NCBI GenBank assembly: GCA_030529995.1 | Contig: JAUMVT010000011.1 | Location: forward strand, 1 to 45,195 | DNA length: 45,195 bases | Origin: Clostridia bacterium | GTDB taxonomy: Bacteria > Bacillota > Clostridia > Christensenellales > Aristaeellaceae | Direction: 5' to 3' | Part shown: positions 13,625 through 18,080 of the stretch, one piece after another | Position numbering within the stretch: position 1 is the first letter of the stretch | Layout of the letters: every line of letters begins with the position of its first letter | Translations under genes and position numbers: made by a program | Notes under the pieces: generated by a model | Told to the model about the DNA's origin: nothing | Database searches by the model: none | What the model saw: only the letters and a program-made list of their open reading frames with translations

Positions 13625-14332
13625 TCAATGTTTCAGTCGCTTATCGCACTTGCGGCTGAGCCACGTGCCAAAGGACTGCAAAATCTGCACCAGAATCACC
13701 AGCACAATCACCGCTAGATACAGCACAGCGTACTTGTACCGCTGATAACCCACCGTGATGGCAATCTTGCCCAGGCCGCCGCCGCCAATGGCACCGCTCA
13801 TGGCCGTGTAGCCCATAATGGTGGTAATGGCCAGCGTGAAGTTATTAATGAGGGAAGGCACGCTCTCCGGCAGCAGCACATGGAGCATGATCTGCATGGG
13901 AGTTGCGCCCATGCTCTGTGCCGTTTCAATAATGTTGGGGTTCACTTCCCGCAGGCTGGATTCCACCAGCCGTGCCACGAAGGGGAAAGCCGCCACCACC
14001 AGCGGAACAATGGAAGCCACCGTGCCCACGGAAGTGCCGATGATCAGCCGGGTCAGCGGAATGACCATGACGATCAAAATCAGGAACGGAATGGAACGCA
14101 ACAGGTTGATCACCACGTTCAGGAATTTCATCAGGGGCTTCGGCAGAGGCCGGATGCCCTTCGCATCCCCTGCCACAAGGATCATACCCAACGGCAAGCC
14201 GATCACAATGGCAAAGAAGGTAGCCAGGAAGGTTACATACACCGTGTCCCACAAGGCCTGAGGAAAGTCGCTGAGGAACATGGCCCAGGCTTCCTGCAGT
14301 TTTTCCGGGGTAAACGCATTAGCGAAGTTCAT
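13625..14332 (-). CDS. metI: Methionine ABC transporter permease
   Basis: The 235-residue integral membrane protein forms the dimeric translocation pore of the methionine importer. About five membrane segments are visible, with the EAA-type coupling region around NPNIIETAQSMGATPMQIMLHVLLPES and the following GYTAMSGAIGGGGLGKIA typical of MetI. Its ATG overlaps the metN stop by 4 bp (ATGA), so translation is coupled. It is the last gene of the operon. Confidence 0.95.
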   Translation of the reverse strand: MNFANAFTPEKLQEAWAMFLSDFPQALWDTVYVTFLATFFAIVIGLPLGMILVAGDAKGIRPLPKPLMKFLNVVINLLRSIPFLILIVMVIPLTRLIIGTSVGTVASIVPLVVAAFPFVARLVESSLREVNPNIIETAQSMGATPMQIMLHVLLPESVPSLINNFTLAITTIMGYTAMSGAIGGGGLGKIAITVGYQRYKYAVLYLAVIVLVILVQILQSFGTWLSRKCDKRLKH

Positions 14333-15363
14333 GCCTGTTCCTCCTTTACATCAGCTGCATACGTAACCTCTACCTGTACGTTCACGTTGGGGGTTGCCTT
14401 CAGGTACTTCACTGCCGCCGCCAGTTCATCCGGCCCGCCGGGGATTTCCAGCAGCATGTAGCCGTAGGTCTTCTCCCCCACTGCACGGACGGAAGCCGTG
14501 TGCACGCTGGCAGCAATGCCTTTTTCCATGGCCATGCGTGCCAGCAAAGGCTCCTGCACCGTGTTGGCGCCATTGAACACCAGCCGCACCAGCTGACCGC
14601 CGGGTGCAGGGGAAATATTGCCCTGGGCCATTTCCGGATACACAAGGTTCTGGGTAGCCTGTGCCTTGGGGTTGGCGAAAACCTCCGCCACATCCCCTTC
14701 TTCCACCACCGTGCCGTGCTCCAGAATGGCCACCCGGCTGCAGATTTCCTGCACAACGCTCATCTGGTGGGTGATGATAATCACCGTGATGCCCATCTTC
14801 GCATTGATGTCCCGGATCAGCTCCAGGATGGCATGGGTGGTTTTAGGATCCAGGGCACTGGTAGCTTCATCGCAAAGGAGCACATCCGGGTCTGTGGACA
14901 GTGCCCGGGCAATGGCCACACGCTGCTGCTGTCCGCCGGAGAGCTGGGCAGGATAGGCGTTGGCTTTGTCCGGCAAACCCACCGTTTCCAGCAGCTTCAT
15001 CGCCCGTTCTTCCGCTTCCTTTTTGCTAACGCCCGCCAGCCGCAGGGGCAGCATGACGTTTTTCAGGCAAGTGCGCTGCATCAGCAAGTTAAAGCCTTGG
15101 AAGATCATCGTGACCCGGCGGCGCACAGCCCGCAGCTCCTTCTTGTTCATCATTCCCAGGTCTTTGCCGTCTACCAGCACGGAACCCTCACTGGGTCTTT
15201 CCAGCAGGTTGATGCAGCGCACCAGGGTGCTCTTGCCTGCACCGGACATGCCGATGATGCCATAAATGTCCCCATTGTTAATGGTCAGGTTCACGTGCTT
15301 GAGCGCATCCACCGGACCGCCCGAAGTAGAAAAGCTTTTGGACAGGTTACGCAGCTCGATCAT
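14329..15363 (-). CDS. metN: Methionine ABC transporter ATP-binding protein with NIL domain
   Basis: This ATPase drives methionine import. Visible are Walker A GMSGAGKST, the Q loop region MIFQGFNLL, the signature LSGGQQQR, Walker B VLLCDEATSALD and the switch His in IIITHQMSV. After about residue 245 follows the NIL domain (to residue 344), which in the family binds methionine and shuts transport down when the cytoplasmic pool is full. It lies 80 bp after metQ, with a hairpin in the gap, and is coupled to metI by a 4-bp overlap. Confidence 0.96.
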   Translation of the reverse strand: MIELRNLSKSFSTSGGPVDALKHVNLTINNGDIYGIIGMSGAGKSTLVRCINLLERPSEGSVLVDGKDLGMMNKKELRAVRRRVTMIFQGFNLLMQRTCLKNVMLPLRLAGVSKKEAEERAMKLLETVGLPDKANAYPAQLSGGQQQRVAIARALSTDPDVLLCDEATSALDPKTTHAILELIRDINAKMGITVIIITHQMSVVQEICSRVAILEHGTVVEEGDVAEVFANPKAQATQNLVYPEMAQGNISPAPGGQLVRLVFNGANTVQEPLLARMAMEKGIAASVHTASVRAVGEKTYGYMLLEIPGGPDELAAAVKYLKATPNVNVQVEVTYAADVKEEQA

Positions 15364-15443: not shown

Positions 15444-16289
15444 TTACTCGCCCTTCAAAGCGGTCAGGTCAGCCTGCTTGCCGGCGTACAGACCCATGGG
15501 CTCCACGTGGATGGCACCCACAGACACGATGTGCGTGCCATTCTCGGCGTTGAAGTTTTCCTGATAGGGCAGGTGAGCGAAATAGTTAGCAAACACTTCG
15601 CCGTCTTCCACCACGGTGTTGGGCAGCACATAGTCAGTGTACTCGATGATGTCCAGGGTGATGTCCTTCTCAGCCAGGATTTCCTTGGCAACGGCCAGGA
15701 TCTGGGCATGGGGCGTAGGAGAAGCAGCCACGGTAATGGTGGTGCCGGCCAGAGCAGCATAGTCTACATCGGCATCATAGCCATCGGTAGGATTCTCCAC
15801 CACGGAGATGGCAGCGCCGGCGAAGGTCTCGTTAATGTAGTCAGCAACCTTCTGGCTGGTCAGAGCGGCCAGCAGTGCCTTGGTGCGGGGATCTTCTTCG
15901 TTGCCTTCCTTCACGCACAGCACGTTGCTGTAGGGAGAGTTGGCATCTTCAATCAGCAGGGCATCGTTGACGGGATTCAGGCCTGCGTCCAAAGCGTAGT
16001 TGTTGTTGATGATGGCATAGTCCACATCAGCCAGCACGTTGGGCACCATTGCGGCTTCAACTTCCTGGAAGGTGATGTTCTTGGGATTGTCCACAATGTC
16101 AGCGGCGGTAGCGGTAATGCCGGCATCTTCCTTCAGGGTAATGATGCCGTTGGCTTCCAACAGCTTCAGGGCACGGCCTTCATTGGTAGGGTCATTGGGA
16201 ACGGCAATGGTAATGCCGTCAGCCAGAGCAACGGCGGTGCAGGACAGAACCAGGGCAGCAGCCAGAATCAGAGAAAGGAACTTCTTCAT
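15444..16289 (-). CDS. metQ: Methionine-binding protein MetQ, lobes in circularly permuted order
   Basis: Residues 1-23 are a signal peptide (LVLSC could be a weak lipobox; ALA-D fits signal peptidase I). Residues 25-165 then match the lobe that is normally C-terminal in MetQ/NlpA: IAVPNDPTNEGRALKLL, VDNPKNITFQEVEAA, VDYAIINNNYAL and EDANSPYSNVL. Residues 182-281 match the normally N-terminal lobe: TVAASPTPHAQILAVAKEIL, EYTDYVLPN, NYFAHLPYQ and VEPMGLYAGK, ending LTALKGE and a stop. All ligand-site motifs (GR, INNNYA, HLPY) remain and total length (281) equals one MetQ. The join points are the hinge and a linker at about 165-182. Start: ATG behind AAGGAGAG. First structural gene of the metQNI operon. 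Confidence 0.93.
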   Translation of the reverse strand: MKKFLSLILAAALVLSCTAVALADGITIAVPNDPTNEGRALKLLEANGIITLKEDAGITATAADIVDNPKNITFQEVEAAMVPNVLADVDYAIINNNYALDAGLNPVNDALLIEDANSPYSNVLCVKEGNEEDPRTKALLAALTSQKVADYINETFAGAAISVVENPTDGYDADVDYAALAGTTITVAASPTPHAQILAVAKEILAEKDITLDIIEYTDYVLPNTVVEDGEVFANYFAHLPYQENFNAENGTHIVSVGAIHVEPMGLYAGKQADLTALKGE

Positions 16290-16364: not shown

Positions 16365-16421
16365 TCACATTCGCTCGTTCAGTATGTTGCAGCGGATCAG
16401 CCGCCGCTCTGCTCGGTTCAT
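16365..16421 (-). CDS. 18-codon small reading frame between attenuator and metQ
   Basis: An ATG at 16421 follows GAAAGGAG with 8-bp spacing, as good a ribosome site as any gene here. The frame runs 18 codons to TGA. The peptide is basic (five Arg), with MNRAERRLIRCNILN at its start, and is not rich in Met or Cys. No family is recognised. It lies after the terminator hairpin and 75 bp before metQ, so it is translated only from read-through transcripts. It could be a second leader peptide, a ribosome-loading site or a microprotein. Confidence 0.45.
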   Translation of the reverse strand: MNRAERRLIRCNILNERM

Positions 16422-16448: not shown

Positions 16449-16486
16449 GAAAACAAAATGAGGAGCCTCTCGACGAAGCTCCTCAT
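16449..16486 (-). terminator. Intrinsic terminator (attenuator) in the metQ leader
   Basis: On the minus strand ATGAGGAGC (16478-16486) and GCTCCTCAT (16459-16467) form a perfect 9-bp stem with a 10-base loop, followed by TTTGTTTT. It sits 34 bp after the stop of the Met-rich leader frame and 170 bp before metQ, on the operon's own transcript. It is therefore placed to stop transcription before the structural genes. Confidence 0.8.
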
Positions 16487-16520
16487 CCTGCAGCCAACAC
16501 ATCGGACAAATTCATCCGAC

Positions 16521-16622
16521 TCAGCCGTTTATCTGAAAGCCCATCGAAACCTTGGCACAGCAAAGCATGCACATGCGACGCATGCACATCTCCATGGGCA
16601 TCATGCTGATAACCTTGCTCAT
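16521..16622 (-). CDS. Methionine/cysteine-rich leader peptide of the metQNI operon
   Basis: The ATG at 16622 follows AAGGAGAG with 9-bp spacing, about 26 nt after the predicted transcript start; the frame ends with TGA at 16521. Of 33 residues nine are Met (1, 7, 8, 10, 12, 14, 17, 19, 27) and four Cys (13, 18, 21, 22); the core is MMPMEMCMRRMCMLCC. The Met codons overlap a strong hairpin (TGCATGCG with CGCATGTGCA). Position between a consensus promoter and an intrinsic terminator, ahead of a methionine transporter, is the classic layout of a leader-peptide attenuator in which ribosome stalling at scarce aminoacyl-tRNA lets transcription continue. The antiterminator pairing was not identified by eye. 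Confidence 0.75.
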   Translation of the reverse strand: MSKVISMMPMEMCMRRMCMLCCAKVSMGFQING

Positions 16623-16654
16623 CTGGGCTCTCTCCTTTCCTTCAGGTTGGGCTT

Positions 16655-16683
16655 ATTATACATAAGGGCATCCTGCTTGTCAA
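16655..16683 (-). promoter_or_regulatory. Consensus promoter of the metQNI operon
   Basis: On the minus strand TTGACA (16678-16683) and TATAAT (16655-16660) match consensus at all positions with a 17-bp spacer. It starts 12 bp after the stop codon of the upstream HTH gene. So strong a promoter fits control by downstream attenuation rather than by an activator. Confidence 0.93.
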
Positions 16684-16694
16684 CCTGTTTTTTG

Positions 16695-18080
16695 TCACGT
16701 GCTTTGTTTTTCTCCTGTATTTTGGTCACCCACCAAATGCTTCAGGAAGGCAATGCTGTCCTCCTTGCTCATGGCATAGCAGGGGATCAGCGTCTTGCAG
16801 AAATACCGCCGCAGGGATCTGGCAAAGCCTGCGTCATGCACAAAGGTATCACAATGCAGATAGCCTTCATAGCTGCCAGGCATCAGTGCCACACCGTGCC
16901 CCAGGTTGGCAGACACATTATGGCTTACAAACAGCTGATCCTCGCCGGACAGGTGCAAATCAAAATGCTCATTCTGCTCCGCATAGGCAATGAGCGCGCT
17001 CAGAATCGACTTTCTCTCCTCCACGGTGAAGGGGCGCAGCTCCATCACTTTCCGCTTCAGCTGCCCGGTTGCCATAAAGTTCTCCACGCCCCTGCAGGAC
17101 ATCAGCAGGTGGGTGGCTCGCTTCTTGGTCAGCATGTTGGTGCACCGCAGGTAGCTGATGCGCCGAAGATCCACCATGGTGCCGTGATCTTCCCGCTCGC
17201 TGCGGAATGCGGCATGCAAAATGTCAATGGGCATGCAGGCAAAGGGCAGATCTTCCTGCATGATGCAGGTTTCCGTATCCTTTTCCATCTGGTACAGGGC
17301 TTCCAGATGCTCCGCACAGCTGCGGAAGTCCGACAGGTCATACACGTAGTTCAAATCCTTGGCATCCACCGCCACCTGCTGGAAGAAGTCGTACAAGCCG
17401 CCATCTGGCAGACTCATCATGCGAATCTTCTTGGAGGGCTGGGCAAGGAGCAGCCATTCCTGCCATGCATCCCTTTTCCGGCAGCGGAGAATCGACAAAT
17501 CCCCCGGGCTGCTGGCATGCTCCGGCAGCATAGACACCCGGCATCTGGTATCACAGAGAACAGGCATGGCGTCTGCGATAAAGCCGGGCATTTCCTCACT
17601 CTGCACCATATGCAGGCAGCACTGAACGTGCATCCGGTCGCCGAAGGTATCCAACAGGCTCATTAAATCCTGAAACAGAACCGTGCTGGAATGCTGAAAG
17701 GTCAGCACGTGAATTTCCAGCGCATCCTCCAACAGAGGCTGCAGCTGACGCAGTAGCAAATCCGTCCGGCTCCCTGCTGCAGGAAAGAAGATGCGGTGAA
17801 AGGCCTCTTCATGATCCACCGGGCCGGACTGCATTCGGTTCACATTCAGTGACGCACGGAAACGTGTTTCTTCCTGAGGGGACACCGGTGCATCCTGGGC
17901 AGCCAGCAGTGATTCCAGAAAAGTAAGGCAGCGCTTCGGCGTGCATTGATCGTGTCGCAGTCGGGAAATGGTGGTGGTGCTCCCCGTGCCGGTAATGGCC
18001 GCCACCTCTGCCGCAGACAGGTCGTGATCCAGCATCCACTGATCCAAGCACTTACCAAAGGTCATGGAATACTCCGTCAC
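16695..18080 (-). CDS. HTH-domain protein of unknown function
   Basis: A 461-residue soluble protein. Residues about 8-65 look like a short helix-turn-helix (LSAAEVAAITGTGSTTTISRLRHDQ) of the XRE/LacI kind. The remaining 400 residues match no family I can name; they are rich in Cys, Met and His, with a segment resembling an effector or phospholipase-D-like scaffold only vaguely. No signal peptide or membrane helix is visible. Start: GTG at 18080 behind GGAGG with 8-bp spacing; a later ATG at 18065 lacks a site. It has a near-consensus promoter and is divergent from the KDG-kinase-like gene. Its stop is 12 bp before the metQNI promoter. Probably a regulator; target unknown. Confidence 0.6.
   Translation of the reverse strand: MTEYSMTFGKCLDQWMLDHDLSAAEVAAITGTGSTTTISRLRHDQCTPKRCLTFLESLLAAQDAPVSPQEETRFRASLNVNRMQSGPVDHEEAFHRIFFPAAGSRTDLLLRQLQPLLEDALEIHVLTFQHSSTVLFQDLMSLLDTFGDRMHVQCCLHMVQSEEMPGFIADAMPVLCDTRCRVSMLPEHASSPGDLSILRCRKRDAWQEWLLLAQPSKKIRMMSLPDGGLYDFFQQVAVDAKDLNYVYDLSDFRSCAEHLEALYQMEKDTETCIMQEDLPFACMPIDILHAAFRSEREDHGTMVDLRRISYLRCTNMLTKKRATHLLMSCRGVENFMATGQLKRKVMELRPFTVEERKSILSALIAYAEQNEHFDLHLSGEDQLFVSHNVSANLGHGVALMPGSYEGYLHCDTFVHDAGFARSLRRYFCKTLIPCYAMSKEDSIAFLKHLVGDQNTGEKQST

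Follow-up and report, generated by a model that had tools for sequence, protein, structure and literature searches.

A Met- and Cys-rich leader frame and a terminator precede metQNI

The window (i.e., the whole stretch of 45,195 nucleotides from a Clostridia bacterium that was analysed) carries on its minus strand, in order, a promoter, a leader frame rich in Met and Cys codons (uORF1), an intrinsic terminator, a second short frame (uORF2), and the methionine transporter genes metQ, metN, and metI (Table 1). The initial annotation had described a consensus promoter, a well-initiated 33-codon frame with nine Met and four Cys codons, and, 34 bp past the leader stop, a terminator with a T-rich tail followed by metQNI, and all of these were confirmed. 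The terminator stem, given there as 9 bp, was found to comprise 12 uninterrupted pairs, and its hairpin starts 34 nt after the uORF1 stop. A Shine-Dalgarno sequence, AAGGAAAGGAGAG, lies just upstream of uORF1. Among the 124 Shine-Dalgarno-led ORFs of 18–60 codons on both strands of the window, uORF1 has the most internal Met codons (eight; the runner-up has four). The leader RNA fold had a z-score of -4.9 and was better than 200 of 200 dinucleotide shuffles. The terminator was recovered by RNAfold and by a second scan; a simple terminator scan gave a hairpin inside uORF1 instead. Region 2, for which region 1 and the terminator are alternative predicted partners, begins 25 nt past the cluster's final Met codon and 20 nt ahead of the stop. 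Upstream, a 461-aa ORF on the same strand (16695-18080) with a near-consensus promoter of its own (18137-18109) ends 11 nt ahead of the leader promoter; it had no NCBIfam match.

Table 1 Features of the metQNI leader and operon in the window
Feature	Position	Strand	Details
Sigma-70 promoter, TTGACA-17-TATAAT	16655..16683	-	12/12 consensus matches
Region 1, GAGAGCCCA; Shine-Dalgarno to start-codon spacer; 5' strand of helix P1	16624..16632	-	pairs with region 2
uORF1, leader peptide MSKVISMMPMEMCMRRMCMLCCAKVSMGFQING, 33 codons + stop	16521..16622	-	9 Met (start counted), 4 Cys
Region 2, TGGGCTTTC, within uORF1	16535..16543	-	pairs with region 1 or terminator loop/descending arm
Terminator ascending arm, ATGAGGAGCTTC	16475..16486	-	sequence and fold
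Terminator loop (GTCGA) and descending arm (GAGGCTCCTCAT)	16458..16474	-	sequence, fold, cross-locus pairing; descending arm alone, 16458-16469
Terminator T-rich tail, TTTTGTTT after hairpin	16450..16457	-	sequence
uORF2, second leader peptide MNRAERRLIRCNILNERM, own Shine-Dalgarno, ends CGA ATG TGA	16365..16421	-	
metQ, methionine-binding protein, circularly permuted by alignment	15444..16289	-	
metN, methionine ABC transporter ATPase	14329..15363	-	NCBIfam TIGR02314 ABC_MetN best, E 1.3e-107, below curated cut-off
metI, methionine ABC transporter permease	13625..14332	-	NCBIfam NF008049 MetI best, E 1.4e-60, just under cut-off

By alignment, the MetQ of the window is circularly permuted relative to solved MetQ/NlpA proteins. 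Its residues 183-276 match the front of 4ib2 and its residues 22-161 the back, and a two-stretch match is likewise seen for 21 other solved relatives (22 sequences with 4ib2). About 115 places match the permuted order nearly full length, and among the papers listed by a literature search none had the words circular permutation.

The leader recurs ahead of methionine genes

We looked for relatives of uORF1 in three ways. A peptide search of 300 same-family genomes matched 15 at E 0.1, and five of the matched loci (L003-L007) are leaders ahead of metQ or metN; L008, L011, L012, and L017 were chance matches on inspection, and L009, L010, and L013-L016 lay outside the inspection. A profile built from six leaders gave matches, a large share of them weak, in 77 of 308 genomes at E values of 0.5 or less. 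Inspection covered 30 loci from this search (matches without loci lay outside it), and 25 were leaders and five chance (L037, L039, L040, L043, and L046). Finally, the Met core was sought at the DNA level with a pattern that is blind to gene context and in which four Met codons were set and Cys-like codons preferred; it found at least 119 stretches in 84,980 species, with 80 loci listed. Within 1.2 kb downstream of 52 of these 80 loci lies metQ or metN. The other 28 are 23 records not labelled as Bacillota (mostly Proteobacteria, two unclassified), L070, L086, L119, L104 (at a contig end), and L107. In L107, an Oscillospiraceae metagenome-assembled genome (MAG), the same leader and terminator stand ahead of metY-metA (NCBIfam TIGR01326 and NF047918, both above cut-off), which points to methionine, rather than transport, as the common theme of the downstream genes.

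With duplicates and L064 removed (L064 and L104 were excluded as contig ends of one bin), 63 leaders were mapped, window included: 25 from the family searches and 38 from the pattern scan. They are followed by metQ (37), metN (24), metY-metA (L107), or a contig end (L032). Met makes up 521 and Cys 221 of their 2043 residues after the start, both counts being inflated by how the loci were found. In 62 of the 63, the best promoter hexamers within 150 nt agree with the consensus at 10 or more of 12 positions, as a raw count without shuffle comparison. The initial annotation had staked its reading on conservation in relatives, and the Met-rich leader, stop codon, terminator, and met gene do co-recur in the mapped set. 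The recurrence of this anatomy with met genes is not chance.

We also sampled by metQ position, using 60 upstream regions: 40 from the family, taken from the upper part of the ~115 near-full-length metQ matches with known-leader loci left out, and 10 permuted and 10 canonical metQ from other families of the class. A Shine-Dalgarno-led ORF with at least four internal Met codons within 350 nt was present in 18 of the 50 family and permuted regions, or 17 after discounting L200, whose ORF was judged chance. The Met leader was thus found at 17 of the 40 further family metQ loci and at none of the other 23, and, outside the family, at 0 of the 10 permuted metQ loci. Among the 10 canonical loci, L219 alone carries a Met-rich ORF, ahead of metN. 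A 21-leader profile run at E 0.02 against 391 genomes sampled at even density across the class hit the genome of the window and 0 of the 390 others; it missed L219, so the sensitivity of this search is incomplete. The leader is patchily distributed in the class. Named carriers, with labels as deposited, include Oscillibacter sp. ER4 (Oscillospiraceae) and MAGs labelled Ruminococcaceae, Lachnospiraceae, Christensenella, and others.

Region 2 is predicted to alternate between two partners

Because subgroups of the leader alignments A2 and A3 differ in register, we did not rely on pair counts in these alignments and instead compared the duplex energy of each locus's own strands with that of partners taken from distant loci. 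The structure set of 60 loci leaves out L036, L062, and L115; a second set of 62 leaves out L115 only and uses revised starts for L018, L028, L029, L034, L036, L062, and L076. For helix P1 (region 1 with region 2), the true partner beat those of distant loci in 51/60 (p 4e-9), and in 54/62 with revised starts (p 2e-10). Pairings include GAGAGCCCA:TGGGCTTTC in the window, GCGAACCGT:GCGGTTCGC in L054, CGGGTCATG:CATGACTCG in L057, GGAAATCCCAT:ATGGGATTTCC in L038, and TCAGTCCAT:ATGGACTGA in L045, and there are 33 distinct P1 helices of at least seven pairs among the 60 loci. When single contiguous P1 helices were compared with distant loci, 14/60 ranked in the best 5% and 22/60 in the best 10%; few rank high individually, and the evidence for P1 is thus collective.

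The initial annotation had proposed computing alternative folds for an antiterminator, and the cross-locus comparison supports one. Pairing of region 2 with the terminator loop and the start of the descending arm beat distant loci in 52/60 (p 2e-8), or 50/62 with revised starts (p 3e-7), and was better than with shuffled region 2 in 52/60 (47/62). A trp-like antiterminator with the ascending arm was rejected: it showed no excess over distant loci (27/60 and 23/62). Against shuffled region 2, the ascending arm scored 36/60 (p 0.018) and 37/62 (p 0.065), and a broader first test with ascending arm plus loop gave 34/60. By comparison and folding, an antiterminator that would exclude the terminator and is alternative to the protector helix is present.

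Region 2 also appears to be held as RNA. Its letters, GATGGGCTTTCAGATAA, are read in frame as MGFQ in the window and as RWAFR-stop in L032. In A3 these letters are kept while 1- and 2-base gaps shift the frame there, and such conservation across frame shifts argues for a role of the RNA. In both A2 and A3, the gaps between the start and the end of the Met cluster have lengths divisible by three, and those past the cluster do not; L060 and L123 in A2 carry a one-base change past the Met cluster.

Averaged over the 60 loci, the terminator (-21.2 kcal/mol) is stronger than the antiterminator (-12.3 kcal/mol), and it is the stronger at equilibrium in 58/60, so that any switch must be kinetic. In simulated folding of the growing transcript of the window with a ribosome at Met19, region 2 stayed in its downstream pairing up to the point at which 29 of the terminator's 39 nucleotides had been made, and then the terminator won.

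Judged against the size of a ribosome footprint, the spacing of Met cluster, region 2, and stop in the window is as an attenuation mechanism needs. Across loci, geometry was rejected as evidence for attenuation. The distance from the last cluster Met to the P1 strand had a median of 14 nt and was at least 13 in 36/62 loci, no better than the control with mismatched partners (median 12, fraction 0.50), and the place of the P1 strand relative to the stop (median -28) equalled that control; earlier uncontrolled figures had been a median of 22 nt, with at least 13 in 55/60 loci. In 22 loci, Met accounts for 178 of 502 codons before region 2 and 6 of 241 after it, an excess that stems in part from the search itself, which looked for region 2 only past the last cluster Met.

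uORF1 is a candidate methionine attenuator

Taken together, the recurring anatomy and the antiterminator found by comparison support the initial annotation's reading of a Met leader-peptide attenuator. uORF1 is very probably part of a trp-type ribosome-mediated transcription attenuator that senses charged tRNA-Met, and perhaps also tRNA-Cys, to control metQNI. When Met is ample, the ribosome would reach the stop codon and mask region 2, so that the terminator folds and transcription ends. When Met is short, the ribosome would stall in the Met cluster, beyond region 1 and before region 2; the free region 2 would capture the emerging terminator loop and descending arm, and RNA polymerase would continue into metQNI. 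With no ribosome loaded, P1 would form and the terminator would remain on. In the window, uORF2 would add a further step ahead of metQ. Against the attenuator stand its patchy distribution, the uninformative spacing, the equilibrium advantage of the terminator, the low individual ranks of most P1 helices, and the double role of Met. Translation starts with Met as well, which puts a conflict into any Met attenuator: Met shortage limits initiation too, and this would favour termination. The same conflict makes the leader a direct test of whether attenuation follows the charging of elongator or initiator tRNA.

Met is taken as the main signal on the strength of the genes that follow and of how often its codons occur, and Cys is also enriched. 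In a Cys-sensing version of the same attenuator, which we judge unlikely, the ribosome would stall at UGC/UGU codons; a stall at Cys21 or Cys22 in the window would leave region 2 free too. No mapped leader lacks Cys (0/63), Cys makes up 61/502 codons before region 2 and 14/241 after it even though Cys was unused in placing region 2, and it reaches 8.4% in the 18 ORFs picked by Met count and place alone. However, the downstream genes are methionine genes, Met is more than twice as frequent, and Tyr, Phe, Arg, Ser, or Gly replaces Cys in many leaders, with L179, which was found by position, having none. The invariant Met columns call for caution, being largely a product of the DNA pattern, with its four set Met codons and its preference for Cys-like ones.

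The strong folding, the recurring alternative helices, and the conservation of region 2 as RNA through frame shifts would also fit a metabolite riboswitch in which the reading frame is incidental. This reading is very improbable given that no Rfam riboswitch matched in the window or in the 40 family metQ upstream regions (17 with the leader), that a Shine-Dalgarno sequence of at least 5/7 precedes each frame (starts having been chosen for it), and that alignment gaps keep to multiples of three only as far as the Met cluster in both alignments. A small functional protein co-expressed with the transporter, such as a metal-binding Met/Cys peptide, is extremely improbable. Copper-binding repeats do carry Met/Cys motifs, and those of uORF1 resemble them, but the terminator separates uORF1 from the operon, the tail past the Met cluster differs among groups, and region 2, although within coding sequence, matches its non-coding partners locus by locus.

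Relation to known leader systems

Methionine control in Bacillota is taught as a matter of S-box or T-box RNAs, or of repressors. At gathering score, Rfam found only a distant tRNA in the window, with no S-box, no T-box, and no match to the Trp, His, Leu, or Thr amino-acid leader families. The 40 family metQ upstream regions likewise contained no S-box or T-box; among the 10 canonical metNIQ loci, which come from elsewhere in the class, 5 had an S-box. Unlike a leader read by codon decoding, the S-box (SAM-I, RF00162) senses SAM, and it is absent from the metQNI leader of the window. The only S-box match in the genome of the window, L047 (G000:C67:15123-15241; RF00162, 83 bits), lies ahead of metK (TIGR01034, above cut-off). 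Some Clostridia of gut and rumen, most of them uncultured, seem to read Met from translation itself, and the leader may serve as an annotation rule for metQNI operons without any known riboswitch.

The trp, his, leu, and thr leader-peptide attenuators of Proteobacteria combine regulatory codons, a protector helix, mutually exclusive antiterminator and terminator, and a cognate pathway downstream. The window leader shares the regulatory codons, a predicted protector helix, the predicted exclusive folds, and the cognate genes downstream. It differs from them in its Met codons, its Clostridia host, the second leader downstream, and a region 1 that overlaps the spacer between Shine-Dalgarno and start. 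Moreover, its putative antiterminator involves the terminator loop and descending arm, where the trp type uses the ascending arm.

Four published systems come close. The uORFC-8-2 motif before cysS in Rhodobacterales has two tandem Cys codons, ribosome-mediated attenuation, and a terminator (PMC8632094); it shares attenuation at codons for a sulphur amino acid with the window leader and differs in its alphaproteobacterial host and synthetase gene. The His leader of hisS/hisZ in bacilli is a leader-peptide attenuator in Bacillota (PMC2965389) but has His codons and serves synthetase paralogues. In Streptococcus, the fthC motif pairs a uORF with a terminator and is tied by its authors to methionine level (PMC11109978); it is proposed to act via initiation rate (tRNA-fMet), and the accessible portion of that report mentions no Met cluster. 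The Cys leader peptides of Actinobacteria share sulphur amino-acid codons with uORF1, with a Cys run near the stop and, in Mycobacterium, without a conserved terminator hairpin (PMC1262725).

Among the open-access papers that our searches listed, a scope that leaves subscription journals and preprints outside, we found no precedent for a methionine leader-peptide attenuator, in agreement with the initial annotation's view that this would be new for the lineage. Attenuation of this class is long established. As far as these searches reach, the novelty would lie in the amino acid and the lineage, with variations on known attenuators in how the antiterminator is wired and in the presence of a second leader.

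A second leader, uORF2, ends in a CGA-AUG codon pair

Between the terminator and metQ lies uORF2, whose nucleotide motif is CGAATGTGA. Scanning before metQ/metN for Arg-Met-stop with any Arg or stop codon returned CGA-AUG-UGA in every match except L215, which has a UAA stop and no frame. The sequence CGAATG[TC]G within 165 nt of metQ was found at 45 distinct loci with permuted metQ (the window and 44 others), and a Shine-Dalgarno-led in-frame start was present at all 45; the other two frames gave 3 and 5. Within the mapped set, the CGA-AUG motif occurs at 24 of the 37 metQ-first and 0 of the 24 metN-first leaders. At the peptide level, N-x-E-S/T-R-R-M with any CGN codon occurs at 40 places in 39 of 308 genomes (the reversed control gave 11 among the matches listed), and CGA is used at 17 of the 17 places beside metQ and 2 of the 23 elsewhere. 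The tail of uORF2 in the window's own genome, NILNERM, falls outside this pattern. Compared with a TnaC-type arrest peptide, the C-terminus shows a recurring Arg-Met and a frequent NRESRRM, and at some loci the stop has shifted position.

CGA is decoded slowly through I:A wobble. We tentatively suggest, with rather less confidence than an even chance would warrant, that metQ stands under two leaders in series: the uORF1 Met attenuator, and uORF2, whose CGA-AUG pair, often after NRESR, would halt the ribosome under Met-tRNA shortage. With the slow CGA in the P site and the hungry AUG in the A site, the two codons would form a codon-pair sensor, which would act on transcript fate or on metQ translation. 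We know of no codon-pair switch for methionine in print.

Other accounts of uORF2 were considered. A fold around it that hides the metQ ribosome site was rejected (mean z -0.20, with 2/45 below -2), and around uORF2 no complement of CGAAUGUG was found beyond what shuffled motifs gave. C exceeds G downstream of uORF2 in 32/45 loci compared with 32/91 controls, an excess too weak to claim a Rho-type reading. At five loci, L186, L187 (g26), L188, L189, and L192 (g11), there is seemingly one merged leader, with Met codons, CGA-AUG inside, and an FRM-stop end.
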